64,000 bases of DNA from Desulfobacula sp. (GTDB taxonomy: Bacteria > Desulfobacterota > Desulfobacteria > Desulfobacterales > Desulfobacteraceae), in contig NZ_JAQYWD010000011.1 in NCBI RefSeq assembly GCF_030145145.1, positions 1 to 64,000 on the forward strand. Direction: 5' to 3'. Shown in pieces: positions 1 through 37,946 of the stretch. A model generated the notes under the pieces. It was not told where the DNA came from and ran no database searches. It saw nothing but the letters and a program-made list of their open reading frames with translations. Position numbers and translations under genes: made by a program. Every line of letters starts with the position of its first letter. Position 1 is the stretch's first letter.

Positions 1-2
1 AA

Positions 3-4593: not shown

Positions 4594-4603
4594 GCGCTTG
4601 GAC

Positions 4604-10243: not shown

Positions 10244-12244
10244 ATGGACGGTATGGAAAAAAAAGACGTCCCCGCCATTGACGTCCGGAATCTGACCAAA
10301 CGATTCGGCACGCTCACGGCTGTGGATAACCTCAGTTTCCAGGTCAGCCGGGGCGAAATCTTCGGCATTGTCGGGCCGGACGGTGCTGGAAAAACCACCA
10401 CTCTGCGGATGCTCGCCAGCATCATGGATCCGGGATCCGGCACGGCGGCCATTGCCGGATATGATACCCAGACGTCCCCTTCCGCCGTAAAAGAGCACCT
10501 GGCCTATATGAGCCAGCGGTTCGGCCTGTATCCGGATCTGACCGTGGCCGAGAATATTTCTTTTTATGCCGACCTTTACGGCATGCCCCGGAAGGACCGG
10601 GAGACCCGCATCACCGATCTTTTGGGATTCAGTCACATGCAGCCGTTCAAACAAAGAAAGGCCCGGGAGCTGTCCGGGGGGATGAAGCAGAAACTGCAAC
10701 TGGTCTGCGCCCTGATTCATACTCCGGCGGTGCTGCTCCTGGATGAACCCACCAATGGCGTTGATCCTGTGAGCAGACGGGATTTCTGGCGGATTTTGTA
10801 CCGGCTTGTCAAGGAGGGGGTCTCCATCCTGGTCACCACGGCTTATCTGGATGAGGCGGAACGCTGTGACCGGATCGGACTTCTGGATCAGGGAAAGTTT
10901 CTGGCCACAGGCGCCCCCCATGACATCAAACAATTGATGATGGGCACGGTGCTCACCATAAGGAGTCCGGATGCCCGGAAGATCCAACCGCTGTTACAGG
11001 CGGGATTGCCCCGCCTGAATGTCACTGCGTTTGGGGATACCGTGCATATTGTCTGTCAACAGGTTCAGGCGACCCGGGAAAAAGCCCTTCAACTGCTTCA
11101 ACCGACCGGTTTCAGGGTCGATGACATCAAAGAAGCCCCCCCCAGCCTGGAAGATGTTTTTGTGTCGATGATGTCACCGCCGGGAGGGGGCGGCGATTCG
11201 GCAGATACAGCCGGTAACGTCCCCGTTGTGACGGCGGATGCTGATTCTCCATCCGTTGGAACGCCGGGACAGATCACGGGGGACACGGCCGTTCGGGTGG
11301 ATCACCTGACCCGGGTGTTTGGCAGTTTTACGGCCGTTGACAACCTGAGTTTCCAGGTCGACCGGGGGGAAATTTTCGGGTTCCTGGGGCCCAATGGTGC
11401 CGGGAAAAGTACCACCATCCGCATGCTTTGCGGATTGCTGGCCCCCAGTTCCGGCAATGGCCGGGTGGCAGACTATGATATCCTTACCCAGGCGGAACAG
11501 ATCAAGCAGAACATTGGGTATATGAGTCAGAAATTTTCATTGTATGAAGATCTCACTGTTGAGGAAAATATCCGGTTTTATGGCGGCATTTACGGACTGA
11601 AAGGCCCTGCCATGACCCGGCGGAAAGCCTGGGCCATGGAAATGGCCGGTCTTTCGGATCATGGACGTTCCCTGACCGCCGTGTTGAGCATTGGATGGAA
11701 ACAGCGTCTTGCCCTTGCCTGTGCCATCCTCCATGAACCGCCCATCCTTTTTTTGGATGAACCCACCAGCGGGGTGGACCCCTTGAGCCGGCGGCGGTTC
11801 TGGGAGCTGATTTACGGCATGGCCGACCAGGGAATTACCGTGTTTGTGACCACCCATTATATGGAAGAAGCAGAGTATTGTGATCGTATCGCCTTGATTT
11901 ATAAGGGCCGGATGATTGCCGAGGGAACCCCCCTGGCCCTTAAAACCCACCAGATGAAGGAACAGATTCTTGATGTGAGATGTGACAGGCCCCAGGAGAT
12001 GTCCCGGGAACTGGTCCCTCTGCCCGGGATAAGGGATGTCTCCCTTTTTGGCGCCGGACTCCATGTGGTCACCCTGGATGCGATCCGGGCGGAACAAGCC
12101 ATTCGCCAAAAATTTGAAACCCTGGGGATCACCCGGTATGCCATTGAAAAAATACTGCCGGGCATGGAAGATGTCTTTATCTCCCTCATTGAAGCGGATG
12201 ACCGGAATGACCCGGGCAATGGGCACCAGGGGGGAGATCAATGA
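10244..12244 (+). CDS. Fused double ABC ATPase (YbhF-like)
   Basis: 666 residues with two complete ATPase domains in tandem. Domain 1 has Walker A GPDGAGKTTTLRML, signature LSGGMKQKL and Walker B VLLLDEPTNGVD. A linker of about 40 low-complexity residues (PPGGGGDSADTAG) follows. Domain 2 has GPNGAGKSTTIRML, signature LSIGWKQRL and ILFLDEPTSGVD. The altered second signature is familiar in this family, where it is often LPLGWKQR. I start at ATG 10244, two bases after the hlyD stop; ATG 10253 is an alternative. An in-frame ATG at 10214 inside hlyD is less likely. It energises export through the two permeases that follow. Confidence 0.92.
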   Translation: MDGMEKKDVPAIDVRNLTKRFGTLTAVDNLSFQVSRGEIFGIVGPDGAGKTTTLRMLASIMDPGSGTAAIAGYDTQTSPSAVKEHLAYMSQRFGLYPDLTVAENISFYADLYGMPRKDRETRITDLLGFSHMQPFKQRKARELSGGMKQKLQLVCALIHTPAVLLLDEPTNGVDPVSRRDFWRILYRLVKEGVSILVTTAYLDEAERCDRIGLLDQGKFLATGAPHDIKQLMMGTVLTIRSPDARKIQPLLQAGLPRLNVTAFGDTVHIVCQQVQATREKALQLLQPTGFRVDDIKEAPPSLEDVFVSMMSPPGGGGDSADTAGNVPVVTADADSPSVGTPGQITGDTAVRVDHLTRVFGSFTAVDNLSFQVDRGEIFGFLGPNGAGKSTTIRMLCGLLAPSSGNGRVADYDILTQAEQIKQNIGYMSQKFSLYEDLTVEENIRFYGGIYGLKGPAMTRRKAWAMEMAGLSDHGRSLTAVLSIGWKQRLALACAILHEPPILFLDEPTSGVDPLSRRRFWELIYGMADQGITVFVTTHYMEEAEYCDRIALIYKGRMIAEGTPLALKTHQMKEQILDVRCDRPQEMSRELVPLPGIRDVSLFGAGLHVVTLDAIRAEQAIRQKFETLGITRYAIEKILPGMEDVFISLIEADDRNDPGNGHQGGDQ

Positions 12245-18177: not shown

Positions 18178-18398
18178 GATGCCCGTCCCATCAATGGTGA
18201 ATGATGGCGGCCAGGGGAATAATGGCTCGGGTGTAACCGTTTGTTATGGGTCATACGGATGTCCTTATCTATACTCACATTGTTTCCTCCATACCGGGAT
18301 TATTTTGTTATCCTATACCATTTTTTCACATTTTTTTCTCCATTGGATTCTTGTATGATAAAAACTCATTTTATTTGCAATGGGATGTGATAGAGTAC

Positions 18399-18465
18399 AG
18401 CAATTTTCATTATGGTTTAAATTATTGAACAGTGAACAGGGTCAGGCTTGTGTTATTGTGCTTTT
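18399..18465 (+). repeat. Partial REP-like repeat, copy C
   Basis: AGCAATTTTCATTATGG followed by GGGTCAGGCTTG and TGTTATTGTGCTTTT. The first 50 bp nearly equal 4604-4654. Only one arm of the inverted pair is present. It is in the 383-bp gap between the divergent radical SAM and DUF2062 genes; the rest of that gap (18178-18398, 18466-18560) shows nothing else I can name. Confidence 0.75.
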
Positions 18466-22083: not shown

Positions 22084-22240
22084 TCATATTTTATGATTAT
22101 TTATACTTTTTTATAAAAAGTAATGAGATAATATAAGGCTTATCGGCTGCTGCCTGAGTTTGTTTTATCGGCGTTCAACAGAGAAGGAAAAATAAACACA
22201 TTAGAGACGCCTTTGTATCAATGATTATTCTGGGTATGAC

Positions 22241-22380
22241 AGCAATTCTCATTTTGGCATTTTCTTGAACGGGTCAGGCTTGTTTTATTGTGCTTTTTAT
22301 CAAAAATCGGTTCTTGAAGAGGCTAAAAGCGCAATAAAGCAAGCCTGACCCTAGCCTGATGTTTCATATTTAGAATTGCT
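22241..22380 (-). repeat. MITE/REP-like element, copy B
   Basis: A 140-bp element with AGCAATTCT / AGAATTGCT ends. Its reverse complement nearly equals copy A (4461-4593) with a 7-bp length difference (GAAACAT inside the distal end). It sits immediately upstream of the promoter of the first ANTAR-type leader. The rest of the 678-bp gap after dnaK holds the dnaK promoter, this element, and the leader described next; 22085-22240 shows nothing else. Confidence 0.85.
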
Positions 22381-22393
22381 CTTTTTTTATTGC

Positions 22394-22422
22394 TTGACAT
22401 TGAAAAAAACATTAACTATGCT
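22394..22422 (+). promoter_or_regulatory. Sigma-70 promoter of the first acyl-CoA dehydrogenase operon
   Basis: TTGACA (22394-22399), exactly 17 bases, TATGCT (22417-22422). Transcription would start near 22430, about 20 bases before the first leader hairpin, so both hairpins and the terminator are in the transcript. Confidence 0.75.
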
Positions 22423-22448: not shown

Positions 22449-22516
22449 GGAGGTAATGGTGCCTCCCCTGTCTATAGCCGGACAGGAAAAAATACGTTAG
22501 AGGTAATGAAGCCTCT
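22449..22516 (+). ncRNA. ANTAR-type dual-hexaloop antitermination leader, copy 1
   Basis: Hairpin P1 is GGAGG-T-AATGGT-G-CCTCC (22449-22466) and P2 is AGAGG-T-AATGAA-G-CCTCT (22499-22516). Each has a T-G pair closing a six-base loop with A at position 1 and G at position 4, the recognition rule published for ANTAR regulators such as EutV. The linker contains an extra small hairpin (CCTGTC/GACAGG). The 3' arm of P2 is also the 5' arm of the terminator at 22510-22549, so forming P2 and terminating are mutually exclusive. Loop rule and overlap are seen directly; the ANTAR role is inferred from them. No ANTAR-domain protein is encoded in the window. Confidence 0.8.
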
Positions 22517-22549
22517 TTTGTCCACAGCAGGACAAAAGAGGCTTTTTTT
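22510..22549 (+). terminator. Conditional intrinsic terminator of leader copy 1
   Basis: AGCCTCTTTTGTCC (22510-22523) pairs perfectly with GGACAAAAGAGGCT (22530-22543) around a six-base loop and is followed by a run of seven T. It is 110 bp ahead of the first gene and shares six bases with hairpin P2. Confidence 0.88.
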
Positions 22550-22658
22550 GTTTTTTCATCCGATATGCCTGAACCGGGGTTAACCCAAACATACCCCAAA
22601 AATCAGGAAACGGTGGAGAAAAACAAATCAATAAACAGCAGCAAAAAGGAGAATCAAC

Positions 22659-23018
22659 ATGGCAAAAGAAATCATCCTCTATAACCTGAGAGACGATGTA
22701 ACAGATGAAGATTACATAAAATGGTGTGCCGATTACAAGGGCCCAACCCTGTTGAGCTTGAGTTCGGTCAAAAGTTTCACCCTTGTGAATATGCTGGGCG
22801 GGGTGAAAGGAAATGGCAAAGAGAGCATCCCGCCGGAAGAAACCAAACCCCCGTTTAAATACATTGGGATTCTAGACAGTACAAATCTGGCAGACTGGGA
22901 CAAGGATAGAAATTCAAAAACATTTAAAGAAGAATTTTTCCCCCAGTGGTTTTCCAAATGGGTGGCGGATTTTTATGTGTTGGCAGGCATGGAGGTTTAT
23001 GACGAAAAAAGTGAATAA
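22659..23018 (+). CDS. Small dimeric alpha/beta-barrel-like protein (REDY/HapK-like)
   Basis: 119 residues, soluble, starting at ATG 22659 with AAAAGGAG upstream. The order VILYNLRDDVTDEDYIKWC ... GPTLLSLSSVKSFTLV ... FKYIGILDS ... FFPQWFSKWVADFYVLAGME resembles small ferredoxin-fold dimeric-barrel proteins annotated REDY-like/HapK, which occur beside enzymes of aromatic or pigment metabolism. It is the first gene after leader 1 and lies 24 bp before the acyl-CoA dehydrogenase gene. The second dehydrogenase locus lacks this gene. Role unknown; family assignment is tentative. Confidence 0.6.
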   Translation: MAKEIILYNLRDDVTDEDYIKWCADYKGPTLLSLSSVKSFTLVNMLGGVKGNGKESIPPEETKPPFKYIGILDSTNLADWDKDRNSKTFKEEFFPQWFSKWVADFYVLAGMEVYDEKSE

Positions 23019-23042: not shown

Positions 23043-24254
23043 GTGAATTTAGAACATCTGTTAACCAAAGAACATCTTCAAATCAGAGAAACCATTCGAG
23101 AGTTTACCAAAAAAGAGATTATGCCCAGGACCAGGGAGCTGGAGGCAGATTACAGTCTTGTAGAAGAAGTGCACCAGAAGCTGGTTGATATGGGGGTTCA
23201 AGCCGATGGGTATCCGGAAGAATACGGCGGCGGTGGACACGGTTCCATGAAATCCTTGTGTATCATCACTGAAGAACTGGCCAAAGGGGATGCCGGCATC
23301 AGCCTGTCCGTTGGAATTAATGCCGGGATCATTCTCAAACCGGCAATGGTGGTTGAAAATAAATTTGTAATGGACCAGTTCATTCCCCGCTTCACGGGTG
23401 ACAAACTGGCTTATGCCTGCATTTCCATGACCGATGAGCAGGGTGGGGCGGATTCGGAAAATCCATTGCTTGCAGGGGGAGGGATCAAGACCACGGCAAG
23501 GCTTGAAGGGGATGAATATGTGATCAATGGTGCCAAGTCCTGGCCGACCCACGGCGGCGTTGCAGAATGTTATCTGACGGTCTGCAATACAGACCCTTCA
23601 GCCGGCGATGAGGGAATCGCCTTGATTTATGTTCCCAAGGATACACCGGGCCTGACCTTTGGAAAACCGGAAGAGAAGATGCTGTTTAAAACATCCATCA
23701 ACTCATCGATCTATTATAACAATGTCCGGGTGCCCAAGGAATACCGCCTGGCCGGTCCGGGTATGGATGCCAATATTTATCATTTTTTTGAAGTGGGAAC
23801 CGGGTGGCATTCGTCTGCCATGGCCCTGGGCGTTGCCGAGCGGGCATTTGAGCTTGCTCTGGCGTATACAGGGACCCGGATGGGCGGATTCAAGCCGGTG
23901 CGGCAGCACAGCATGGTGGCAGGGATCCTGGCCGATATGGCCATTGGTATTGATATGATGCGGGCCAGCGTCTACAACCTGAGCTGCATGCTGGACAACC
24001 TGGATGTATACGGTCCGCCCTGGAGCCCGCAGTTAATTTCCAAAGCATCTGCCACCCGTGTTTTTGCCGGGGACAAGGCGGTTGAAATCGTGAATAAGGG
24101 TGCCGAACTCCTGGGGTCCATGGCAATTTCAAAAGACTTTGGCTACGAAAAATGTCTCAGGGATGCCAAGATATTCCAGCTCTGGCTGGGCGGGCAGCAG
24201 ATTTGCCGCTACCGGGTCGCCCGGGGCTATTATGATTTGAAAAACTGGGCATAG
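23043..24254 (+). CDS. Acyl-CoA dehydrogenase-like flavoprotein, copy 1
   Basis: 403 residues from GTG 23043, preceded by AAAGGAGG. Family landmarks in order: N-terminal helices (EHLQIRETIREFTKKEIMPR), the ELAKGDAGISL helix, FAD/substrate region YACISMTDEQGGADSENP, beta-domain INGAKSWPTHGG, and C-terminal FAD contact KIFQLWLGGQQICRYRVARG. The usual catalytic Glu (the E of Y-E-G-T in QIYEGT) aligns with Leu in QLWLGG, and the alternative Glu site used by isovaleryl-CoA dehydrogenase (before the FG of the G helix) is also not Glu (TRMGGF). It may therefore use another base or catalyse a different reaction. It is nearly identical to 35400-36611. An SDR and an ABC importer follow. Confidence 0.9.
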   Translation: MNLEHLLTKEHLQIRETIREFTKKEIMPRTRELEADYSLVEEVHQKLVDMGVQADGYPEEYGGGGHGSMKSLCIITEELAKGDAGISLSVGINAGIILKPAMVVENKFVMDQFIPRFTGDKLAYACISMTDEQGGADSENPLLAGGGIKTTARLEGDEYVINGAKSWPTHGGVAECYLTVCNTDPSAGDEGIALIYVPKDTPGLTFGKPEEKMLFKTSINSSIYYNNVRVPKEYRLAGPGMDANIYHFFEVGTGWHSSAMALGVAERAFELALAYTGTRMGGFKPVRQHSMVAGILADMAIGIDMMRASVYNLSCMLDNLDVYGPPWSPQLISKASATRVFAGDKAVEIVNKGAELLGSMAISKDFGYEKCLRDAKIFQLWLGGQQICRYRVARGYYDLKNWA

Positions 24255-24361: not shown

Positions 24362-25150
24362 ATGATGTTAACAGGAAAAAAAATTATTGTAACCGGTGCC
24401 GCATCCGGTATTGGTGCTGAAACCGCCAAACTATTAAAGGCAAAAGGAGCCAGTATTGTTGGCATGGATATTAATGAACCCCAGGCCAATATAGATCAAT
24501 ATATAAACGTTGATTTTTCAGATCCAGGATCAATTGAAACAGCAGTGGCATCTGTTCCGGATGGAATTGATGCCTTGTGCAACATTGCAGGCCTTCCTCC
24601 GACAAAAGAACGGGCACTGGTACTGAAAGTTAATTTTCTTGGACTCAGACATTTTACCGAACGGATGATTGACAAGTTAAACGATGGTGCTTCAATCGTA
24701 AATATTGCGTCCCTTGCCGGTCTCGGCTGGCCGGAAGCCGGGGACCAGATCAAAGCCTTACTGGCATTAAGGGATTTTAGTGCCACTGAGGCATTCTGCG
24801 AATCAAATGGTGTAGAAGAAGGGGGGGGGCGGTCTTATTTTTTCACCAAAGAAACCCTGATTGTCTGGACCATGATGAATCGCTGGACCTGGCGTGACCG
24901 GGGCATCCGAATGAACTGCGTGAGCCCCGGACCTGTTGAAACCCCGATCCTCCCTGATTTTCTTGAAACCCTGGGTGAAAGGGCTGCAGAAGATGCAAAG
25001 GTGATGGACCGGCCCGGACGTCCCGAAGATATTGCACCGGTTATTGCGTTTATGTGCAGTGACGACAGTAACTGGATAAGGGGTGCAAATATTCCCGTTG
25101 ATGGTGGGATGTACCAGCATGTTCTGTGTAATATGCATGGACATATTTAA
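24362..25150 (+). CDS. Short-chain dehydrogenase (coniferyl-alcohol/3-alpha-hydroxysteroid dehydrogenase-like)
   Basis: 262 residues, NAD(P)-dependent oxidoreductase. It has the cofactor glycine motif VTGAASGIGAE near residue 13, the acidic residue after beta-2 (GMDINEP, favouring NAD), NIAG (CNIAGLPP), active Ser in NIASLAG, and the catalytic Y-x3-K as YFFTK (about residue 160). A long insertion precedes the Tyr, as in coniferyl-alcohol dehydrogenases. The C-terminus GANIPVDGG is typical. The codons before the Tyr (EEGGGRS) contain a run of nine G (24821-24829). It starts at ATG 24362 or 24365. It probably oxidises a hydroxyl in the same pathway as the dehydrogenase upstream. Confidence 0.87.
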   Translation: MMLTGKKIIVTGAASGIGAETAKLLKAKGASIVGMDINEPQANIDQYINVDFSDPGSIETAVASVPDGIDALCNIAGLPPTKERALVLKVNFLGLRHFTERMIDKLNDGASIVNIASLAGLGWPEAGDQIKALLALRDFSATEAFCESNGVEEGGGRSYFFTKETLIVWTMMNRWTWRDRGIRMNCVSPGPVETPILPDFLETLGERAAEDAKVMDRPGRPEDIAPVIAFMCSDDSNWIRGANIPVDGGMYQHVLCNMHGHI

Positions 25151-25201: not shown

Positions 25202-26404
25202 ATGAGAGTATCTAATTTATGTAAGGCCATGAGCATTGGATTGATCAGCGTAATGATAGGATTTAGCTCTGTGCAGGCACAGGACGTCATCAAGGTCGGA
25301 ATGTCTGCGGCGAAAACCGGCCCCCTGAGTGGCGGTACGGCGGTTACCCAGTGGCCGAATTTGAAACTATGGGAGCACACGGTTAATGCCAAGGGCGGAA
25401 TCAAAGTAGGTGACAAACGCATGCCTGTTAAAATCTTTGAATATGATGACAGAAGCCATCCTACGGATGCGGTTAAAAATATTCAACGGATGATCAACAA
25501 GGATAAGGTTGATTTTGTTGTTGCACCTTATGGTACCGGGATAAACCTTGCCGTTGCCCCCATACTTGCTAAATACGGGTATCCCCATATCGCTGTCAGT
25601 TCCATTACTGACAAGGGGGATGAGTTTACCAAACGATGGCCGAATATGTTTTTAACCCTGGGTACATCCACAGGGTTTGCCGAATCAGTAGCCGATGTCC
25701 TTAAAAAAATGCGTGACCAGGGAAAGATAGGCAACAAGGTTGCGGTTGTAAATGTTGCTGATGCCTTTGGTATTGAACTGGCTCATGTTGGCAAACCCGC
25801 ATTGGAAAAGGCCGGTTTTGAAATTGTATATGAAACATCCTACCCTCTTGGAACACAGGATTTAGCACCGGTAATCAATGGAGCAAAGAATGCCAAACCA
25901 GATGCATTTGTTGCCTTCAGTTATCCGCCTGATACGTTTGCACTCACCGAACAGGCCAAAATTTCAAATTTAGAGGTTAAGGCATTTTATGTCGGTGTTG
26001 CGACCTGCTTTCCTGCTTTTGAAAAAAGATTCGGTTCGGCAGCGCAGGGCATATTCGGTGCAGGTGGGATAAATCCTGACACACCGGAGATGAAAGCCTA
26101 TTTCAAGAGCCATCTTGAAGTTACCGGTGTGGCCGCTGATTACTGGGCCAGTGCCACTACCTATGCAAGCCTTCAGGTTCTTGAGCAGGCCATTGAACGC
26201 GCAGGCACCATTGATCATCCCCAGGTCATTAAAACAATAAAGAACGGCACATTTGATACAGTTATGGGAAAGATTACCTTTGATGGGAACATCAATCGTA
26301 AATTCTGGACCATGGGGCAGTGGCAGGATGGTGTGTTCTATGGCGTTGCTTCCACAGGTCTGGATGGGGAAAAAGAGCCAATCATTAAAACAGGTTGGAA
26401 ATAG
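25202..26404 (+). CDS. livK: ABC importer periplasmic binding protein, branched-chain amino acid type (LivK family)
   Basis: 400 residues with a signal peptide (cleavage about residue 26, VQA/QDV). It is a type I periplasmic binding protein: DVIKVGMSAAKTGPLSGGTA at the start of the mature protein, IQRMINKDKVDFVVAPYGTG, and VAVVNVADAFGIELAHVGKP opening the second lobe. LivK relatives bind leucine-type amino acids but also aromatic acids, amides and urea, so in this setting an aromatic or acyl compound is plausible. It is followed by a weak terminator and the four other transporter genes. Confidence 0.9.
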   Translation: MRVSNLCKAMSIGLISVMIGFSSVQAQDVIKVGMSAAKTGPLSGGTAVTQWPNLKLWEHTVNAKGGIKVGDKRMPVKIFEYDDRSHPTDAVKNIQRMINKDKVDFVVAPYGTGINLAVAPILAKYGYPHIAVSSITDKGDEFTKRWPNMFLTLGTSTGFAESVADVLKKMRDQGKIGNKVAVVNVADAFGIELAHVGKPALEKAGFEIVYETSYPLGTQDLAPVINGAKNAKPDAFVAFSYPPDTFALTEQAKISNLEVKAFYVGVATCFPAFEKRFGSAAQGIFGAGGINPDTPEMKAYFKSHLEVTGVAADYWASATTYASLQVLEQAIERAGTIDHPQVIKTIKNGTFDTVMGKITFDGNINRKFWTMGQWQDGVFYGVASTGLDGEKEPIIKTGWK

Positions 26405-26458: not shown

Positions 26459-26482
26459 ATAGTGTTTAGGAGTTCCGGGGTT

Positions 26483-27349
26483 ATGGAAATAATTATTACG
26501 GGTATTTTGTTGGGTGGTGCCTATGCATTAATTGCAGTTGGCCTGACCATACAGTACGGGGTGGCTCGTATCATGAATCTTGCAACGGGTGAGACACTTG
26601 TTGCGTCATGTTTTTGCACATTCTGGATGTTTAACAGTCTCAAAATAAATCCAATTTTAGGTATTTTTCTGATCGCACCGGCGGCATTTATACTCAATTG
26701 GGCAATCTATTCACTCTTGCTTTTACCGCTGGTACGTCGTGCCAAGAACAAAGCAATGCTGGAGGTGGACAGCATTCTGGCTACCTTTGGAATTCTCTTC
26801 TTATTGGAAGGCTTGATGCTGGTGGGATTTGGCGGGGAGTATTTCAGCTATAGTTTTCTGTCCACATCCTACACGATTGCCGGAACCGCATACGGCTTGA
26901 ACAGGATTGTGGCATTTCTGGCAGCCGTTCTGATCACAGGAACACTCTATGTTTTTCTTACCCATACCCGTTATGGAACATCCGTCCGGGCGGTTGCGGT
27001 TGACCCTGCCGCCGCCGGACTGGTGGCTATCAATGTTGATCGTGTTTCTGCATTTGCATTTGCCCTGGGAGGTGTTGTGACGGCCGCAGGAGGCACTCTT
27101 TTGTCTACTTTTTACACCTTTAATGCTTCCATGGGGGTTGTCTTTACGATGAAGGCATTGATCATTGTTATCATGGGCGGTGTAGGAGATGTCCGCGGTG
27201 CCGTGATAGCAGCGCTTATTCTTGGAATAGCTGAAACTGCAACGGCAACCCTTATAGATCCCGGATTAACCATTGCCGCTACCTATTTTCTGTTTATTCT
27301 TATTCTGTTATTCAGGCCCCAGGGGTTGTTCGGGAGACAAACGACATGA
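26483..27349 (+). CDS. livH: Branched-chain-type ABC permease (LivH)
   Basis: 288 residues from ATG 26483, nine bases after AGGAG; an in-frame GTG at 26462 lies in the terminator tail and is rejected. About eight hydrophobic helices are present. Family marks are the N-terminal GILLGGAYALIAVGLTIQYGVARIMNLA (segment starts near residue 8) and the EAA-like loop around AAAGLVAINVDRVSAFAFAL. The C-terminus ends LLFRPQGLFGR, the usual LivH end. It overlaps livM by 4 bp. Confidence 0.93.
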   Translation: MEIIITGILLGGAYALIAVGLTIQYGVARIMNLATGETLVASCFCTFWMFNSLKINPILGIFLIAPAAFILNWAIYSLLLLPLVRRAKNKAMLEVDSILATFGILFLLEGLMLVGFGGEYFSYSFLSTSYTIAGTAYGLNRIVAFLAAVLITGTLYVFLTHTRYGTSVRAVAVDPAAAGLVAINVDRVSAFAFALGGVVTAAGGTLLSTFYTFNASMGVVFTMKALIIVIMGGVGDVRGAVIAALILGIAETATATLIDPGLTIAATYFLFILILLFRPQGLFGRQTT

Positions 27350-28296
27350 TAAAAATAACAAAAGATGAAATCCGTATTTTACTATACATGGTGGTTGCTG
27401 TTGCCATACTTGCCTGTCTGCCGCTGCTCGACCAGGGGTACATCCTGTCGCTGGGATTGACCATTGTTATGTATGTCGCACTTTGTACTGCCTGGGTCCT
27501 TTTTTCAGGACCAACACACTATATTTCCCTTGCCACAGCCGCATTCTTTGGTCTTGGAACCTATGTCGTCGGCATCGGGATAGACGTATTGCCATTCCCC
27601 ATACTGTTAATCATCGCGGCCCTCATCGGTGGGGTTGTTTCCGGATTGGTCGGCATTGCAACACTTCGTTTGTCAGGCGTCTACTTTGTCATTTTTACGT
27701 TGGGTATGGCGGAGCTGATTCGCCAGATTGTCACATGGATCCAAACCAATTTTACAACAGGAATCGGACTTTATGTTCTCACCGACTTTAGTGAAGCACA
27801 CATTTATTGGATGTTGCTGGCATTGACGGTCCTTATCTTTATTACAGGCTGGCTGATCAATCGTTCCCGGTTGGGGTTTGCCATGAGAATTATCGGCAAT
27901 GATGAGACGGTTGCCGCCCATGTCGGTATTGACTCGGCAAAGGCAAAGGTATTGCTGTTCCTTATCTCCGGTGCCTATATTGCTGTCATTGGGGCGATTC
28001 TTGCACCGCGGTTTGCGTATATCGAACCCCCCTCCGCGTTTAATCCCATGATTTCATTTTTAGTGGTCATCATGTCTCTGATGGGGGGAACCCGGACGCT
28101 ATGGGCACCCTTAATTGGCGTTGTTCCTTTTACATTATTGTTTGATATGGTTTCTGCTAGATTTCCCAATCACTCAAGTATTCTGCTGGGCATTGCTTTT
28201 CTGCTGATTGTATATCTGATTCCGGACGGGTTGATTGGTAGAATTGAGGGAATCACCAAACGATTTTCAAAGAAAAAGGAGAGGACACATGAGTAA
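27346..28296 (+). CDS. livM: Branched-chain-type ABC permease (LivM)
   Basis: 316 residues. It has the LivM pattern: several helices, a segment LFSGPTHYISLATAAFFGLG corresponding to the conserved G-x-S-L-G-x-A-x-F-G motif, the cytoplasmic EAA loop (AMRIIGNDETVAAHVGIDSA) and a final GLIGRIEGI. It pairs with LivH in the membrane and overlaps both its upstream and downstream genes. Confidence 0.93.
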   Translation: MIKITKDEIRILLYMVVAVAILACLPLLDQGYILSLGLTIVMYVALCTAWVLFSGPTHYISLATAAFFGLGTYVVGIGIDVLPFPILLIIAALIGGVVSGLVGIATLRLSGVYFVIFTLGMAELIRQIVTWIQTNFTTGIGLYVLTDFSEAHIYWMLLALTVLIFITGWLINRSRLGFAMRIIGNDETVAAHVGIDSAKAKVLLFLISGAYIAVIGAILAPRFAYIEPPSAFNPMISFLVVIMSLMGGTRTLWAPLIGVVPFTLLFDMVSARFPNHSSILLGIAFLLIVYLIPDGLIGRIEGITKRFSKKKERTHE

Positions 28297-29023
28297 ACCG
28301 GTTGTTTTGAAGGTCAATAGTGCTACCAAACGATTCGGCGGACTTTTGGCTGTTAACAATTTGGATTTCGAGGTGACTGAACACGAAGTTCTGGGTCTCA
28401 TCGGTCCCAATGGCTCAGGGAAAACAACAGTGATGAACCTGATTTCCGGAGCTTTGAAACTCAGCTCAGGTGAAATCCGCCTGGAAGAAAAAATTGTCTC
28501 AGACCTGCCGGCGTATAAAATATCACAACTGGGGATATCCCGTACATTCCAGCTGGTTAAAATCTTACCAACCTTAAGTGTCATCGATAACGTTATTTCA
28601 GGTGGTGTATTCGGATATCACAGAATGTGGGGAGAAAATGCAGAAGAAACAGCATTACATCTGCTGAAAAAAGTCGGACTGGCAGCCTTGGCATTTAAGC
28701 CCACAGAACAATTGACCTATATCGATCAAAAACGTCTGGAACTGGCAAGGGCATTGGCCGGGAATCCCAAACTGTTATTGCTTGATGAATGGCTGGCCGG
28801 GTTGAATCCAACCGAATTGCAGATCGGTATTGAGTTAATTCATTCCCTGCGGGCTGAAGGAAGAACCATCATACTTGTAGAGCATGTTATGGACGCTATT
28901 CGAAGCTTATGTGATCGATGTGTGGTGATGAGCAGCGGCGTTAAAATTGCGGATGGAGAAGTGGCAGAAACATTAAAGAACCCGGAAGTCATACGGGCTT
29001 ATTTGGGGGATTCAGATGCTTAG
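28289..29023 (+). CDS. livG: ABC importer ATPase (LivG)
   Basis: 244 residues from ATG 28289 (AAGGAGAGG upstream); an in-frame ATG at 28235 inside livM is not used. Walker A is LIGPNGSGKTTVMN and Walker B LLLLDEWLAGLNP. The ABC signature region reads LTYIDQKRLELARAL, lacking the SGG of the classical motif as is common in LivG. The Walker B catalytic Glu is kept (DEW). It acts as a heterodimer with LivF. It overlaps livF by 8 bp. Confidence 0.92.
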   Translation: MSKPVVLKVNSATKRFGGLLAVNNLDFEVTEHEVLGLIGPNGSGKTTVMNLISGALKLSSGEIRLEEKIVSDLPAYKISQLGISRTFQLVKILPTLSVIDNVISGGVFGYHRMWGENAEETALHLLKKVGLAALAFKPTEQLTYIDQKRLELARALAGNPKLLLLDEWLAGLNPTELQIGIELIHSLRAEGRTIILVEHVMDAIRSLCDRCVVMSSGVKIADGEVAETLKNPEVIRAYLGDSDA

Positions 29024-29723
29024 AATTGAAAATATGTCCGTGGCTTACGGGCATCACCGCGCCCTGGACAACGTATCGATGAAAGTTGACTCAGGTGAGA
29101 TCGTCGTAGTACTGGGCGCCAATGGCGCTGGGAAATCAACACTTTTGAAGGCCATTGGCGGTATGATCCCGGCAGGAAATGGCTTTAAGGCCAGTATCAA
29201 TGGCCTACAAATTCAGAACAAAAAACCCCATACCATTGTGGAAGCAGGGATTGCTCTTGTTCCGGAAGGCAGAGGTGTTTTTGGTGAATTAAGTGTCGGC
29301 GAAAACCTGAAACTGGGGGCCAACCCCAAACGGGCGCGGAAGCATGAAAATAAAAATCTGAAAACCGTATTTGACCTTTTCCCAGTCCTTGCCAGAAGAA
29401 AAAATCAACTCGTACGGACAATGAGCGGTGGTGAACAGCAGATGGTTGCCATTGGACGCGCCATCATGTCCCAACCGGATATAATGATGTTTGATGAACC
29501 CTCTCTGGGCCTCTCTCCGTTGCTGACAACTGAAGTGTTCAAGGTGCTCACCCTTCTGAAAAAAACAGGTGTCGGTATCCTGCTTGTAGAACAGAATGCC
29601 CGCCAGAGTCTGGCAATTGCGGATAGAGGTTACCTTTTAGAAAACGGGCATATCGGACAATCAGGATTGGCCAGGGACTTGATTGAGGATGAGGCGGTCC
29701 GCAAAGCCTACCTGGGGGGATAA
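29016..29723 (+). CDS. livF: ABC importer ATPase (LivF)
   Basis: 235 residues, with Walker A LGANGAGKSTLLKA, signature TMSGGEQQMVAIGRA and Walker B IMMFDEPSLGLSP. The segment VPEGRGVFGELSVGENL is typical of LivF. It is the last gene of the importer operon and is followed by a REP-like repeat and then the FIST-kinase gene. Confidence 0.93.
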   Translation: MLRIENMSVAYGHHRALDNVSMKVDSGEIVVVLGANGAGKSTLLKAIGGMIPAGNGFKASINGLQIQNKKPHTIVEAGIALVPEGRGVFGELSVGENLKLGANPKRARKHENKNLKTVFDLFPVLARRKNQLVRTMSGGEQQMVAIGRAIMSQPDIMMFDEPSLGLSPLLTTEVFKVLTLLKKTGVGILLVEQNARQSLAIADRGYLLENGHIGQSGLARDLIEDEAVRKAYLGG

Positions 29724-29800: not shown

Positions 29801-29889
29801 GGGGTCAGGCTTGCGTTATTGACGCTTTTGCTGAATTCCTTTGCCATTACAGTCTGTTATCAAAAGCACAATAACACAAGCCTGACCCC
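29801..29889. repeat. REP-like inverted repeat, copy D, plus a 16-bp tandem
   Basis: GGGGTCAGGCTTG (29801-29813) with CGTTATTGACGCTTTTG pairs with CAAAAGCACAATAACACAAG and CCTGACCCC (ending 29889) around a 30-base loop. Directly after it GACCCCGTCGAACCAT occurs twice in tandem (29884-29899 and 29900-29915). This fills most of the 304-bp gap between livF and the FIST-kinase gene. Nothing else is recognisable there. Confidence 0.8.
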
Positions 29890-30027: not shown

Positions 30028-33000
30028 ATGGCCGATTATTTTGAATCCGGTATTGGAAAGGCAACCTTACATCATCCAGAACAAGATCACGCTGAACTGG
30101 GTCGCGAGGCGGCCTCAGAAGCACTGTCTCAGATTAAGCAATTCCAACCCTGTCTTGCAATGGCCTTTGTTTCCTCTGAATTGGATATCCCTGGGATCAC
30201 AAAGGGGATAAAAGAGATGATAAAGGAATGTCCTCTGATTGGAACAGGCACCGCTGCTGCCATTGCAAACGGCTTTGCAGCAAACAGTGTTGTTGTATGT
30301 GTTCTGGCGTCCCCTCATATTAGAGTTCGAATCGGTGCCGGGAACAATGTCAGCCAAAACTTCCAAACAGCCGTCAGTGAAAGCCTGTCGGATGCAGGGA
30401 TTAATCAATACTTTGACTATCTCCATCCACAGCATCAAATGCTTCGCATGGCTTCAGGAGGCACTTCTGGAAATTCACCTGTTCTTCTCATTGTTTTTTC
30501 CCCTGGATCAACAACTGAAAAATATTCCTCCAGCCATGATATCCACTCTGTCTTACGAAAATCTTCTGCCAATCGGATACCCATATTTGGCGGTAGCTCA
30601 TCCGATTTTTTTCACTATGGACCAAACTATCAAATTATCAACAATCGTGTATTAAACGATGCCATAGTCCTGGCATTTCTTGAAACAGATGTTCTCTTTG
30701 GTTTGGGAATGGCACATGGATTTATCCCAACCAAAAAACAGGTGATGGTAACACGCGCTTCCGGTCATTTTATCCATGAATTTGATAAACGGCCGGCTGT
30801 TGATGTTTATGCTGAATTGCTTAAAATGGATCCGCTGCACATCAAAGGAAACTTTCAGGTGGGTGTACCGCCTTTCAAGCAATTTCCCCTTGGATCTGTG
30901 GATATGTATGGGAATTCAATATTGCATGTGCCGGAACGTCTTTTAGACGATGGATCTATTCAGTTCGCCCATGTCATTGAAAACTCCCGGGTCATGAGCT
31001 TAATGCGGGCTAAAGATGACGAGGTGCTAAATGCCGGGGTTGCCGCATATAATAAAGCCGTTCTATACGGCGGTTTAAACAAACCGTCATCCATCATCAT
31101 GCTGTCCTGTGCATTGAGAATGAAAAATCAAGCGGAACAGGAAGACCTTAGACGGGTCCGGGAGAATGCAAATCTCTCGTTCTGTGGTCTCTATTCTTAT
31201 GGGGAAAAAGGTGTTCTGGATGATGGTCTCCCTGTGTATAATAATCATTCTGTTTCTACCCTGGTTTTCTCAGATGAATTGAATCCCATTGCCTCTTTGG
31301 TGAACAAGAATAAAAACATATATGAAAAATTTAATGATGAACTTGAAAAAAAAGCACTTCAAATAAAGTCAATTTCCAAAATGAATGAGGTGATCCAAAA
31401 TGAAACCGATGTGGGCCGGCTTCTCACCTCTCTGACGTCAGAGCTGGCCGTATCTTTCCCATGGGCGTATGGTGCCTTTTATCTGTCTGAGGGTCAAAAT
31501 GGAACATTGGCTTTGGCAAGTGCGGTTGATTTTGAAAAGTTCCCCGACAAAATCCAGATAAACAAAGAACAACCAGGGTTCTTGTATATCCATCTGGATA
31601 GCCATGAAAAGTCTTTTGGGGTAATGGTTTTGAGAGTTAAGGACTCCGCCGTGGGTCTCAATGAAGAAGATATCCAATTGGCCAGAACAATCGGTAAAAT
31701 GGCAGCGAATGGCCTTCATCAAATTGAATTGGACAGCCATCTGAATGTTAAACTGCGGCAGCTTGAAATTCTAAACCAGATCGGCAATGAATTATCTAAA
31801 ACCGAGGAAAATGGCCTGCAATCTGAGAACATATTAAACCATATCAAACGGTCTTTAAAATTATCATTCGTAAGTCTGTGGCTGATCGATAGAACACATC
31901 AGCTGCTGACAAAAGAAGCCATCACCTCAAATGAAGATATGAAAATCGGCCAGGTGGAAAAAGAAAATGACGAGAGACTTGCCAGGTGGCAGATCGAACA
32001 TGAAAAACCCCTTTTTTATACCAATGAACCCGGGATGATGCACCCCATCCAGTTGATCGCACCATTTAATTTTAGTTTTGTTTCATTACCCATCAAATTA
32101 AAAGGAGAATTAAGGGGGATTTTAAATTTATTTTCCCTCCGACAATATAAGTGGTCTCTTCAAACAGAGCGTATATTTGAAAACATGGAATTTTTGCAGA
32201 ACATCTCCACCCAGATTGCCATGTTCATAGAAAACAGGAGTCTTCATAAACACACAACCCTCTACAAAGAGATTCATCATCGCGTGAAAAACAACCTGCA
32301 GAATATTGCCAGTCTCCTGCGGATGCAGCGGCGCCGTCTTGACAGTATTACAGCAGACCAGGCCTTGTCAGACAGTATTGCGCGAATTATGAGTATTGCC
32401 ATGGTTCACGACACTCTCTCCCAGAGTGAGATTGGTCTTGTTGATCTCCACCGGCTTATGGACAGTATCATTAAATTCTGCGAGTCAGAAGCTTCCCACA
32501 AAATTAACATTACCCTGGATGTTTCCGATACACTCACCATGATCCCCTCCAGGGAAGCAACCACACTTTCACTGGTAGTGAATGAACTTGTTCTTAATGC
32601 CATCCAGCATGGCGTTAAAGGGAGAGAAAATGGTAAACTCCAGATCATTGTTGAACAAAAAAATGATATATCCGTCACGATAATAGATGACGGTCCCGGG
32701 TTGCCGGACGCATTTGATGCTAAAAAGGATGGGAATTTAGGATTGACCATCGTTCAAACCCTGGTTAAAGATGAACTTAAAGGTCATTTTGAAATCAATG
32801 GATCTTCCGGAACACGGGCATATGTTTGTTTTCCGACTCCTAAATCCTGCTACCCGTTACAAAAGTCTGAAAATAAAATTAAACTTCATAAAGAAAAACC
32901 TAAAACTCGTTTTGGTAAGATAATGAGCAAATTTGGAGGGAACCCGATGACAAAGGAAAGCGCTTTAAAAGATAAAGTGATACTGATAGTTGATGATGAA

Positions 33001-33447
33001 GCCGATATTCTTGAAACAGTGCAAGAAGAACTTTCCATGTGCCTTTTGCACAAGGCCCAGGATTACGATACGGCAAAGCAATACCTGGCAAGTTATACGT
33101 ATGATATTGTTATTTTGGATATTATGGGAGTGGATGGGTTTGAGTTGCTGAAGGATTCTGTGCACAGGGGGTTTCCCACCACCATGCTGACAGCTCATGC
33201 CTTGACACCAGAGGCATTAAAACAATCCATAAAGCTGGGGGCGGTATTTTTTCTTCCAAAGGAAAAGTTATTTGAGTTAAAGGAATTTTTAGAAACAGCA
33301 GTCCTCAAAGAAAAAAAAGCGTCCTGGTCATATTTTTTTGATACATTCGGCAAGTATCTTAGCAACCGCTTTGGACCGGACTGGAAAGAAAAGGATAAAT
33401 TCTTCAAAGAATTTGAAAAGTCCATCAGCATGAATAAAAAGGATTAA
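30028..33447 (+). CDS. FIST sensor / GAF / GAF / HisKA_2 histidine kinase / receiver fusion
   Basis: 1139 residues, no membrane segment, so a cytoplasmic sensor. Order: FIST N and FIST C domains (about 1-390; e.g. CPLIGTGTAAAIANGF, IPIFGGSSSDFF, FGLGMAHGFIP), a domain thought to bind small ligands such as amino acids; two GAF-like domains (about 460-565, 585-725); a HisKA_2 phospho-acceptor helix EIHHRVKNNLQNIASLLRMQ (His about 749); an HATPase (NELVLNAIQHG, IIDDGPGLPDAF); a linker; and a receiver (about 980-1100, phospho-Asp in VILDIMG) with a C-terminal extension. GAAGGAG lies upstream of ATG 30028. HisKA_2 kinases often partner ANTAR regulators. It sits between two ANTAR-type leaders and directly behind the importer genes, so it plausibly senses the imported compound. 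Confidence 0.9.
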   Translation: MADYFESGIGKATLHHPEQDHAELGREAASEALSQIKQFQPCLAMAFVSSELDIPGITKGIKEMIKECPLIGTGTAAAIANGFAANSVVVCVLASPHIRVRIGAGNNVSQNFQTAVSESLSDAGINQYFDYLHPQHQMLRMASGGTSGNSPVLLIVFSPGSTTEKYSSSHDIHSVLRKSSANRIPIFGGSSSDFFHYGPNYQIINNRVLNDAIVLAFLETDVLFGLGMAHGFIPTKKQVMVTRASGHFIHEFDKRPAVDVYAELLKMDPLHIKGNFQVGVPPFKQFPLGSVDMYGNSILHVPERLLDDGSIQFAHVIENSRVMSLMRAKDDEVLNAGVAAYNKAVLYGGLNKPSSIIMLSCALRMKNQAEQEDLRRVRENANLSFCGLYSYGEKGVLDDGLPVYNNHSVSTLVFSDELNPIASLVNKNKNIYEKFNDELEKKALQIKSISKMNEVIQNETDVGRLLTSLTSELAVSFPWAYGAFYLSEGQNGTLALASAVDFEKFPDKIQINKEQPGFLYIHLDSHEKSFGVMVLRVKDSAVGLNEEDIQLARTIGKMAANGLHQIELDSHLNVKLRQLEILNQIGNELSKTEENGLQSENILNHIKRSLKLSFVSLWLIDRTHQLLTKEAITSNEDMKIGQVEKENDERLARWQIEHEKPLFYTNEPGMMHPIQLIAPFNFSFVSLPIKLKGELRGILNLFSLRQYKWSLQTERIFENMEFLQNISTQIAMFIENRSLHKHTTLYKEIHHRVKNNLQNIASLLRMQRRRLDSITADQALSDSIARIMSIAMVHDTLSQSEIGLVDLHRLMDSIIKFCESEASHKINITLDVSDTLTMIPSREATTLSLVVNELVLNAIQHGVKGRENGKLQIIVEQKNDISVTIIDDGPGLPDAFDAKKDGNLGLTIVQTLVKDELKGHFEINGSSGTRAYVCFPTPKSCYPLQKSENKIKLHKEKPKTRFGKIMSKFGGNPMTKESALKDKVILIVDDEADILETVQEELSMCLLHKAQDYDTAKQYLASYTYDIVILDIMGVDGFELLKDSVHRGFPTTMLTAHALTPEALKQSIKLGAVFFLPKEKLFELKEFLETAVLKEKKASWSYFFDTFGKYLSNRFGPDWKEKDKFFKEFEKSISMNKKD
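32929..32949 (+). promoter_or_regulatory. Internal ribosome-binding site and in-frame start for a free receiver protein
   Basis: Inside the FIST-kinase gene, GGAGGG is followed after six or seven bases by ATG 32947, in frame at codon 974, exactly where the receiver unit begins (MTKESALKDKVILIVDDE). Initiation here would give a 166-residue response regulator, matching the 165-residue stand-alone protein at 3671-4168. A good Shine-Dalgarno in a linker suggests the fusion arose by joining a kinase gene to a regulator gene and that both products may still be made. Confidence 0.6.
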
Positions 33448-35009
33448 TCGGCCGAAATCATATCCTTTTTTCTTCCGAAAGGGATTTGCAGTTTTCGCAT
33501 GCGGGACCGAAGGGTACCCGGATTGATTCCCAGCAGGTCAGCGGCACCATTTTTCCCCTGTACTTTACCTTTTGTCAACTGGAGAACATGCAAGATATGG
33601 CGCCGGTTAATATCTTCCAGGTCAAGTACTTCAGGGTCATGAGAACCCAATTGCCTTGGAGACGGAAGGGTAGAATTTAACAGATGACGATCATCGAAAT
33701 GAAGTCTTCCTTCAAATCGTCCTGTCCTGCTGAGAATAAGCGATCTTTCTATAAAATTTTCCAACTCTCTGACATTACCGGGCCAGTCATATTCCGTTAA
33801 CCGATCAATTGTTTCGGAAGTGACAACCGGACGTTGGCCCAGGTTCAACTCCCGGGTTTTAAGATCGATAAAATAGTCTACAAAACCAGGAATATCGGCT
33901 TTGCGCTGGCGAAGCGGCGGGATGATGATGGGAAAAACATTCAACCGATACCAGAGATCTTCCCGGAAATATCCGTTTTTGACCATTTCTCCAAGGTTTC
34001 GGTGGGTTGCCGCGATGACCCGGACATCCAGTGTCTGGTTTTCGGTTCCACCAACTCTTTCGATAGTTTTTTCCTGCAAAACCCTCAGCAGTCGAATTTG
34101 TGCTGCTGCCGGCAGTTCGCCGACTTCATCAAGAAAGACCGACCCTTTGTCAGCCCGTTCAAAAAGACCTCTTTTCATGGCCATTGCACCAGTAAAGGCC
34201 CCTTTTTCATGACCAAACAATTCACTGTCGATAAGCGTTTCAGGGATGGCACCACAATTTATTTTAATGAATGGACCCTTTCGTCTATCTGAAGAATAAT
34301 GCAGGGTGTTCGCAATCACTTCCTTACCCACTCCCGTTTCTCCAAGCAGAAGAACATGGTTGTCTAAAGAGGCAACTTGTCTGACCATTTCCATGACATA
34401 GCGAAGTCCGGATTGTTCACCAATGATAACGTCACCTGAAATTCGATGAAGTTCCTTTTGCAAATATTGCTTGTCATCTTGTAATATTGTTTTCAGTTTT
34501 ACGACTTGCTGATAGCGAAGGTGGTTGGAAATGGCAATTGAGAAAGGATCCCGAAGCATGTGTATCAGCCGGAGATGCTTTTGAGAGAAAACATTCTTTT
34601 CTTTTGTCATCATACCGATCACCACCATCTGATCGCCTTCAATCTGAAGGGGGATACCGATGCCGGAGGCTGTTTTATAACCCGTTGTCTGGGCGATTTC
34701 CCTTGTTATGGTTTTTCTACCGTCAATGTCAATCAAGTAGGGTTTCCCGATGTCGGATTTTAATTCTGCCTGGGCTTTTTTTGATAGAAACCGGGTTTGG
34801 TTGAGTGGTATTTTTAATTCAAAATCAGATGCAAATGCAATGAATTTGAATCCACCCGTTTCAAGATCGAATAGATTGCAGTCAATGCTATTGATGGGGA
34901 TATATTGTTTCAAAAATAAAAAACAATTTTTGAAAACTGCCTTCAACTCCAGGCTGCCGCAGATATTTAGTGTTGCTTCATGGAAAAATGCATAATCATC
35001 AATTTTCAT
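33444..35009 (-). CDS. Sigma-54-dependent transcriptional activator with GAF sensor domain
   Basis: 521 residues. A GAF-like sensor is at the N-terminus (about 10-165). The central AAA+ domain has Walker A LLLGETGVGKEVIAN, the sigma-54 contact loop GAFTGA (HEKGAFTGAMAMKRGLF), Walker B GSVFLDEVGE, and [21 protein letters not shown] Fis-type HTH is at the C-terminus (GKNGAADLLGINPGTLRSRM). The stop overlaps the end of the convergent FIST-kinase gene by 3 bp. It is divergent from acyl-CoA dehydrogenase copy 2, whose upstream region has a sigma-54 promoter and an inverted-repeat site, so that is its likely target. Confidence 0.92.
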   Translation of the reverse strand: MKIDDYAFFHEATLNICGSLELKAVFKNCFLFLKQYIPINSIDCNLFDLETGGFKFIAFASDFELKIPLNQTRFLSKKAQAELKSDIGKPYLIDIDGRKTITREIAQTTGYKTASGIGIPLQIEGDQMVVIGMMTKEKNVFSQKHLRLIHMLRDPFSIAISNHLRYQQVVKLKTILQDDKQYLQKELHRISGDVIIGEQSGLRYVMEMVRQVASLDNHVLLLGETGVGKEVIANTLHYSSDRRKGPFIKINCGAIPETLIDSELFGHEKGAFTGAMAMKRGLFERADKGSVFLDEVGELPAAAQIRLLRVLQEKTIERVGGTENQTLDVRVIAATHRNLGEMVKNGYFREDLWYRLNVFPIIIPPLRQRKADIPGFVDYFIDLKTRELNLGQRPVVTSETIDRLTEYDWPGNVRELENFIERSLILSRTGRFEGRLHFDDRHLLNSTLPSPRQLGSHDPEVLDLEDINRRHILHVLQLTKGKVQGKNGAADLLGINPGTLRSRMRKLQIPFGRKKDMISAD

Positions 35010-35141: not shown

Positions 35142-35157
35142 TGGCACAGTTATAGCA
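35142..35157 (+). promoter_or_regulatory. Sigma-54 promoter of acyl-CoA dehydrogenase copy 2
   Basis: TGGCACAGTTATAGCA keeps GG (35143-35144) and GC (35155-35156) ten bases apart and the TGGCAC box; only the first T of TTGC is changed. Transcription would begin near 35168, about 20 bases before leader hairpin P1. Confidence 0.65.
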
Positions 35158-35189
35158 TTTAAGTTCATAACACGTTAAGCATGATCCTT

Positions 35190-35257
35190 CAGAGGGTAAT
35201 GATGCCTTCTGAATTTAATGAATAGAAAAAAAGATCCTTAGAGGTAATGAAGCCTCT
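35190..35257 (+). ncRNA. ANTAR-type dual-hexaloop antitermination leader, copy 2
   Basis: P1 is CAGAGGG-T-AATGAT-G-CCTTCTG (35190-35211, one G-U pair in the stem) and P2 is AGAGG-T-AATGAA-G-CCTCT (35240-35257). Loops again have A1 and G4, closed by T-G. P1 differs in stem sequence from copy 1 while keeping pairing and loop, which is compensatory evidence for selected RNA structure. P2's 3' arm is the terminator's 5' arm. Here the leader is driven by a sigma-54 promoter, unlike copy 1. Confidence 0.8.
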
Positions 35258-35290
35258 TTTGTCCAAAGCTGGACAAGAGAGGCTTTTTTT
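35251..35290 (+). terminator. Conditional intrinsic terminator of leader copy 2
   Basis: AGCCTCTTTTGTCC (35251-35264) pairs with GGACAAGAGAGGCT (35271-35284), with one G-U pair, followed by seven T. It is 110 bp before the acyl-CoA dehydrogenase start, the same layout as copy 1. Confidence 0.85.
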
Positions 35291-37941: not shown

Positions 37942-37946
37942 TAGAT

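Follow-up and report, generated by a model that had tools for sequence, protein, structure and literature searches.

A very probable ANTAR-controlled attenuator, one of four, upstream of an acyl-CoA dehydrogenase operon in Desulfobacula sp.

Introduction

A short leader at nt 22449–22549 of the 64,000-nt stretch of Desulfobacula sp. DNA analysed here (the window; contig NZ_JAQYWD010000011.1, nt 1–64,000) had been described, from its letters alone, as an ANTAR-type antitermination leader in front of an acyl-CoA dehydrogenase operon. Is it a regulated switch or a plain terminator, which protein would read it, and which of its hairpins would matter? Pairing, conservation and gene context point to a transcription attenuator that is very probably under ANTAR control and one of four in a regulon.

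The leader at nt 22449–22549 and its operon

The first leader (leader 1) and the genes that follow it comprise:

22394–22422, + strand: sigma-70-like promoter, TTGACA-17-TATGCT, ahead of leader 1
22449–22466, + strand: P1 hexaloop hairpin, GGAGGU-AAUGGU-GCCUCC, U-G closed, with A1 and G4 and a 6-bp stem
22467–22486, + strand: third hairpin, CCUGUCU-AUAGCC-GGACAGG, a U-G closed A1/G4 hexaloop between P1 and P2
22499–22516, + strand: P2 hexaloop hairpin, the proposed antiterminator, AGAGGU-AAUGAA-GCCUCU, U-G closed, with A1 and G4, kept in relatives
22511–22549, + strand: intrinsic terminator, a hairpin (22511–22542) followed by a T run (22543–22549)
22524–22529, + strand: apical loop of this terminator, ACAGCA, six-base, A1/G4
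22659–23018, + strand: 119-aa protein, a homologue of which precedes an acyl-CoA dehydrogenase gene in relatives L207 (63%) and L076 (41%)
23043–24254, + strand: acyl-CoA dehydrogenase, copy 1
24362–25150, + strand: short-chain dehydrogenase (SDR)
25202–26404, + strand: periplasmic binding protein (Peripla_BP_6) of an ABC importer
26462–27349 and 27346–28296, + strand: two permeases of the importer (named by eye)
28235–29023 and 29016–29723, + strand: two ATPases of the importer (named by eye)

The 119-aa protein (22659–23018) gave no Pfam match. Importer genes like those at 26462–29723 are also found in relative L076 (by eye).

The two hexaloops of the preliminary description (AAUGGU and AAUGAA, both U-G closed and with A1 and G4) can be read directly in the sequence, as can the 3' arm that it held to be common to the second hairpin and the terminator: the 3' arm of P2 (22511–22516) is the terminator foot, and the two pairings are mutually exclusive. 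Its count of seven T also stands, while its 14-bp stem has 13 bp, or 14 with the first T counted as paired (a scan permitting further A-T pairs gives 16). The hairpin at 22467–22486, the terminator loop ACAGCA and a second leader at 35188–35290 are new to the current study.

The predicted fold of the leader 1 region has an energy of -47.6 kcal/mol, against a mean of -25.4 for shuffled sequences (z -6.55). P2 is absent from this fold because the terminator wins, and an extra A1-U6 pair closes P1 to a four-base loop. For the unit at 22499, the terminator is predicted to be 8.6 kcal/mol better than P2 plus the apical hairpin. Two hexaloop hairpins of the real window overlap a terminator (22499 and 35240, + strand in both cases); 20 first-order simulated windows, scanned on one strand each, had none. 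The placement of leader 1 behind a sigma-70-like promoter is suggestive only (10 of 12 matches; one found, 0.5 expected in shuffles). In Rfam 15, which may hold no ANTAR leader family, nothing matched the 64-kb window at gathering scores, and the leader 1 region gave sub-threshold matches, the best being tsr25 (33.1 bits, cutoff 63).

A second leader in the window

Downstream lies a second leader with a related layout:

33444–35009, - strand: sigma-54 activator gene, divergent from leader 2
35142–35156, + strand: sigma-54-like -24/-12 element, TGGCAC-N5-TAGC, ahead of leader 2
35188–35213, + strand: P1 hexaloop hairpin, UUCAGAGGGU-AAUGAU-GCCUUCUGAA, with a 10-bp stem and A1/G4
35240–35257, + strand: P2 hexaloop hairpin, loop AAUGAA
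35252–35290, + strand: terminator, apical loop AAAGCU (four-base if A1 and U6 pair)
35400–36611, + strand: acyl-CoA dehydrogenase, copy 2, 99.3% identical to copy 1
37273–37941, + strand: B12-binding protein
37947–39086, + strand: URO-D family protein

The blocks of leaders 1 and 2 share 98.5% DNA identity over 1232 bases of the gene and 82% over 171 bases of the leader. P1 and P2 are separated by 32 nt in leader 1 (22467–22498) and by 26 nt in leader 2 (35214–35239), the latter gap holding no hexaloop hairpin. That leader 2 stands behind a sigma-54-like element facing a sigma-54 activator gene is again suggestive only; there are two such elements in the window (0.43 expected), and the one at 35142–35156 was called on the -24/-12 consensus. 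Whether the B12-binding and URO-D genes (37273–39086), a pair typical of methyl transfer, belong to the leader 2 operon is uncertain.

Complete units in this and other genomes

When the whole genome was searched by pattern and by model, four complete units emerged, at 22499, 35240, C51:824 and C63:128325 (C51, C33 and C63 denote other contigs). The leader at C51:824 lies between a divergent gene for a REC-ANTAR protein and an aldehyde:ferredoxin oxidoreductase gene, and that at C63:128325 is upstream of a ThiS-family (MoaD-like) gene. The acyl-CoA dehydrogenase/ABC importer operon keeps its place as a proposed target, as one of four rather than the single one of the preliminary description.

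A model built solely from these four units (R1) matched 35 of 145 genomes at E values up to 0.01, nearly all weakly. Below 1e-7, matches in this 145-genome sample were confined to the Desulfobacula genome itself, and among the 29 R1 matches taken up as loci outside it (L018–L046), none had a hexaloop overlapping a terminator. In a blast search with the 121-bp leader DNA, two of 58 genomes matched, this one and G008. The latter also gave the next-best R1 match (4.1e-7), upstream of an outer-membrane protein-like gene (by eye); this site was left out of the ANTAR leaders because its loop, CAUAAA, lacks A1 and G4. Across 1.05 Mb of fetched loci, a set that is mutually redundant and enriched for matches, there were nine distinct hexaloop-terminator overlaps, five of them at loci described here and four weak-looking (by eye).

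ANTAR proteins and the sensor kinase

A search of the genome for ANTAR-domain proteins, on which the first interpretation had been made to depend, returned two, a REC-ANTAR (C51) and a GAF-ANTAR (C33) protein (Pfam), and so leaves that interpretation standing. The only HisKA_2 match in the genome lies between the two leaders of the window:

30028–33447, + strand: FIST-GAF-HisKA_2-HATPase-REC sensor kinase, 1139 residues

This kinase is 49–57% identical to kinases that adjoin REC-ANTAR genes elsewhere, and is likely to be the partner of the C51 REC-ANTAR, though the two genes are non-adjacent in this genome. Residues 985–1079 form a C-terminal REC domain, possibly a phosphate sink; Pfam finds no counterpart of it in five orthologues (those of L076, L204, L206 and L207 and that of L077, which is truncated by the contig start).

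The best two PDB sequences for the REC-ANTAR, both covering nearly its full length, are 1s8n (a putative antiterminator) and 6wsh/6ww6 (a response regulator), the latter of which we take to be EutV; both come from other organisms and have other targets. In an alignment of six REC-ANTARs (own included, L205 left out), EutV residues implicated in RNA binding were compared: the equivalents of R142, K143, K149, E160 and M172 are kept in all six and that of Y164 in five (F in G711), while that of K147 is kept in one and those of R168, N173, R175 and R177 in none. Residue numbers are offset by two from the PDB chain numbering, after which all twelve letters match those in the part of PMC8934654 used here. 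In EutV, R142, K149 and E160 are residues at the flipped G4, and replacement of E160 by alanine cut binding 60-fold (PMC8934654).

Kinase, REC-ANTAR and leader in related genomes

REC-ANTAR orthologues with 63–72% identity to that of C51 were found at six loci in six other genomes (L076/G293, L077/G327, L204/G494, L205/G616, L206/G711 and L207/G735). In all six the gene adjoins an orthologue of the FIST-HisKA_2 kinase (49–57% identity; domains were checked in five, the L205 kinase being assigned by similarity only). All six fetched stretches also hold an R1 leader (E values 6e-14 in L076, 2e-5 in L077, 8e-15 in L204, 3e-14 in L205, 2e-14 in L206 and 1e-5 in L207), which in five of the six stands upstream of aldehyde- or acyl-CoA-dehydrogenase genes. 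The gene 3' of the leader is an aldehyde dehydrogenase in L076 (Pfam) and in L204, L205 and L206 (by eye), and an iron-sulfur protein gene in L077.

In L207 the row runs kinase, REC-ANTAR, leader, 119-aa homologue, acyl-CoA dehydrogenase and oxidoreductase, so that this locus joins genes that are dispersed in the Desulfobacula genome. In L076 the aldehyde dehydrogenase after the leader, the 119-aa homologue, the acyl-CoA dehydrogenase and the ABC importer form a single run. The leader, aldehyde dehydrogenase, kinase and REC-ANTAR follow one another in that order on one strand in L204, L205 and L206, and the switch may therefore also control its own regulators there. A further leader lies upstream of an SDR-like gene in both L204 and L205. 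These two loci also carry tandem complete units before one aldehyde-dehydrogenase-like gene (L204, 17220–17271 and 17350–17400; L205, 16364–16415 and 16499–16549), which parallels the tandem copy at nt 22449–22550 of the window.

With a second model (R2), matches at or below 1e-13 were found in five of 395 genomes of the phylum, and the identical five have a REC-ANTAR at 1e-75 or better. As R2 was trained on units of those same genomes, the informative part is that the other 390 gave no strong match, under stricter filters by which weak matches can be lost. Six genomes with weak R2 matches (G558, G653, G660, G749, G750 and G770) showed no A1/G4 hairpin adjoining kinase or ANTAR genes (by eye) and were set aside.

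Five EutV-like loci (L048, L049, L051, L060 and L068) showed no leader in their 3.2-kb stretches; their EutV-like genes adjoin microcompartment-like genes (by eye).

Other leaders of G616 and G494 (L229 and L230, 1501–1548; L225 and L226, 1501–1549) show an R-N-N-G hexaloop overlapping a terminator (by eye), with terminator loops GAUGAU or GAUGAC. L229 is upstream of an ammonium transporter gene (Pfam) and L230 upstream of a gene with the same length and start; in each case a 4-bp AACGAU hairpin lies 61 nt further upstream. The leaders L225 and L226 precede other genes (that of L225 without a Pfam match) and have sigma-54 promoter matches.

Conserved structure of the unit

Thirteen units were aligned. 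Two poor matches lacking a clear apical hexaloop (L207:9573–9624 and L077:2670–2720) were kept outside the alignment and are included in counts over 15 units. Pairing is possible in 95.5% of cells for P2 plus the apical hairpin and in 96.8% for the terminator, in rows that are related and with an apical stem common to both structures. Each pairing has 8 cells changed on both sides, a number reached in none of 500 shuffles. Weaker measures are the count of pairs with a double change, which 5 (P2/apical) and 20 (terminator) of 500 shuffles reached, and that of further pair types, which 74 (P2/apical) and 23 (terminator) of them reached. When partners were slid by one to three columns, pairing fell to 46–64% (P2/apical) and 45–66% (terminator).

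The P2 loops read A-A-Y-G-R-N in all 13 units, all with A1 and G4, and their AAYG stands on a stretch that the terminator does not use. P2 and the terminator-loop hairpin abut, with a zero-nt linker. P1 is seldom present: when the 90 nt upstream were scanned for stems of at least 4, no P1 candidate was seen in 12 of the 15 units, the exceptions being both window units and L207:9573–9624 (a 5-bp candidate). By chance, about 5.5% of shuffled 90-nt stretches yield a 4-pair candidate.

These counts bear on the dual-hexaloop rule invoked in the preliminary description. The eut-type layout, with two hexaloops of which the second overlaps the terminator, is present in both window leaders, so that the A1/G4 hexaloops and the overlap stand. 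The spacing does not: eut leaders have linkers of 5–12 nt, and linkers of 3 or 14 nt drastically reduced induction (PMC3369931), against 32 and 26 nt here. With these gaps and 12 of 15 units devoid of P1, conservation does not extend to the dual hexaloop in its textbook form. The intervening hairpin may compensate (in leader 1), P2 and the terminator loop may work as the pair, or P2 alone may suffice, the last being compatible with the single-hexaloop model proposed in PMC8934654.

The most plausible reading of the window P1 (22449–22466) is that it belongs to a copy of the unit whose terminator has been lost, because the segment 22449–22487 fits only model positions 1–39, with both unit hairpins and neither terminator foot nor T run, and its first 38 bases match the complete unit at 27 of 38 positions.

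The apical loop of the terminator has R1 and G4 (R-N-N-G) in 12 of the 13 aligned units (the exception is GAUACA), and for this reason it may be a second ANTAR site. Under this proposal, the terminator loop abutting P2 would make the unit of about 50 nt a complete switch without P1, an ANTAR dimer would work P2 and then the terminator loop, and the textbook P1/P2 layout could arise by tandem duplication of the unit and loss of the terminator in the first copy, as at 22449–22487. We put this forward tentatively, as an idea more likely wrong than right. Among 57 other terminators, too small a background to be decisive, six had six-base loops and one of these was R-N-N-G, while the same scan, with A1-U6 pairs allowed, gave seven leader terminators, four with six-base loops (all R-N-N-G) and three with four-base loops. 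Against the proposal stand a G at position 1 in eight of the 13 units, the two poorer units without such a loop, the relatedness of the rows and the A1-U6 closures. Strict A1/G4 apical loops number five of 13 (the four Desulfobacula units and G711). EutV recognises G4 through stacking and base-specific bonds and does not contact A1 specifically (PMC8934654), so a G at this position need not prevent binding. Of the five A1/G4 apical loops, three (35240, C63:128325 and G711) are predicted to close A1-U6 and leave a four-base loop, which weakens confidence in a displayed six-base terminator loop; such closure is not peculiar to the terminator, since it is also predicted for P1 of both window leaders and for P2 of G494_17271.

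The alternative, that P1 and P2 are the functional dual hexaloop as in eut, with the hairpin at 22467–22486 shortening the effective distance and the terminator-loop hexaloop incidental, is conceivable and likewise doubtful. P1 is intact in both window leaders (stems of 6 and 10 bp, A1/G4) and has a candidate in the weaker L207 unit; against this weigh the 12 units without one, the absence of an intervening hexaloop hairpin from leader 2, and the finding that extending the linker by 20 nt abolished eutP antitermination in vitro (PMC8934654).

Comparison with known ANTAR systems

EutW, the sensor kinase partner of EutV, is of the HisKA_2 type, and the adjacency of HisKA_2 and REC-ANTAR genes known from this pair was seen in L076, L077 and L204–L207, not in the Desulfobacula genome. 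As in the EutV/EutW-controlled eut leaders of Enterococcus faecalis, there is a REC-ANTAR with a partner sensor kinase (a likely one here), A1/G4 hexaloops, a P2 whose 3' arm lies over the terminator, and several leaders per regulon. Unlike them, the kinase here contains a FIST domain, the genes are for acyl-CoA dehydrogenase, aldehyde oxidation and ABC import, P1 is absent (12 of 15 units) or, in the window, 26–32 nt away, and an R-N-N-G terminator loop follows P2 at zero-nt distance (12 of 13 aligned units).

The NasR and AmiR systems use different sensor proteins, and their targets, unlike those described here, are nitrogen-linked. The nasF and amiE leaders resemble the present ones in that an ANTAR protein reads a leader hexaloop overlapping a terminator (PMC3369931). 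In the genome survey of the same paper, the majority of terminator-overlapping ANTAR targets are upstream of nitrogen-metabolism genes (PMC3369931). Actinobacterial ANTAR RNAs are similar in that their hexaloop targets are tied to metabolite transport and in some cases lipid metabolism; unlike here, only a few are located at a terminator, and overlap with a ribosome-binding site or start codon is seen in about 37% (PMC8164766).

The preliminary description knew of no described case for such an operon in sulfate reducers. Searches of open-licence literature found no paper linking ANTAR to a FIST domain or to aldehyde ferredoxin oxidoreductase. By title, none was relevant to ANTAR with acyl-CoA dehydrogenase or Deltaproteobacteria, a result that applies to PMC3369931 apart from its predicted-target tables, and nothing new was found on ANTAR with apical loop, hexanucleotide or terminator.

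Proposed mechanism and other explanations

From the mutually exclusive pairing, its conservation, the gene neighbourhood and the presence of one such kinase and one REC-ANTAR, we infer phosphotransfer, RNA binding, readthrough and a ligand, as follows. The FIST-GAF-HisKA_2 kinase (30028–33447) would sense a small ligand and phosphorylate the C51 REC-ANTAR. The dimeric ANTAR protein would bind the emerging hexaloop hairpin AGAGGU-AAUGNN-GCCUCU, and transcription would continue because the bound hairpin holds the 3' arm GCCUCU and so keeps the terminator from closing in its lower half. Transcription would then run into the genes for the 119-aa protein, acyl-CoA dehydrogenase, SDR and ABC importer; with no signal, the terminator would win. 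Points against this mechanism are the P1–P2 gaps beyond the eut range, the several EutV contact residues that are not kept, the location of the kinase gene away from that of the REC-ANTAR in this genome, and the additional REC domain on the kinase.

If correct, this adds a FIST-kinase/REC-ANTAR branch apparently controlling carbon catabolism (acyl-CoA dehydrogenase, aldehyde oxidation, ABC import and cofactor assembly), which differs from the known switch family in its apparent control of carbon rather than nitrogen. Units that occur naturally with P1 and others that lack it, all apparently served by a single regulator, offer a direct test of the number of hexaloops required by an ANTAR dimer and of whether one of these can sit on the terminator. 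Because gene order in the relatives names the likely sensor, the inducing substrate can be sought.

The attenuator might instead be read by the GAF-ANTAR protein of C33, which is intact and keeps the equivalents of EutV R142, K143, K149, Y164, R168, M172 and R175. We regard this as improbable. Of 145 genomes, 66 encode an ANTAR domain, this one among them, and judged by listed frame sizes most of these domains lie in reading frames about as long as the GAF-ANTAR, whereas R1 matches below 1e-7 occur in this genome only, and strong R2 matches are confined, partly by construction, to the five of 395 genomes with the REC-ANTAR. The GAF-ANTAR also has G at the position of E160, a residue needed for full EutV binding (PMC8934654).

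ANTAR frames of GAF-ANTAR-like length are common among genomes of the order. The gene itself (L002, C33:128816) adjoins one for a ferredoxin-domain pyridine-nucleotide oxidoreductase (by eye).

That leader 1 is an ordinary terminator with inverted-repeat debris and no regulated antitermination is most improbable, for although its terminator is strong alone and the region adjoins a dispersed repeat, AAYG is constant in all 13 P2 loops on a stretch outside the terminator, and the element recurs at four operons and near ANTAR and kinase genes in six other genomes.

Dispersed repeat

This repeat is palindromic, about 70–140 bp long, with GGGTCAGGCTTG... ends, and MITE- or REP-like (by eye). Its copies are:

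22240–22380, 4461–4594, 29802–29888 and 18397–18465: window
1–101: L013 (C51)
11239–11319: L012
2496–2575: L014

The end of contig C51 lies inside a repeat copy that is 100% identical over 101 bp to the copy just upstream of leader 1.
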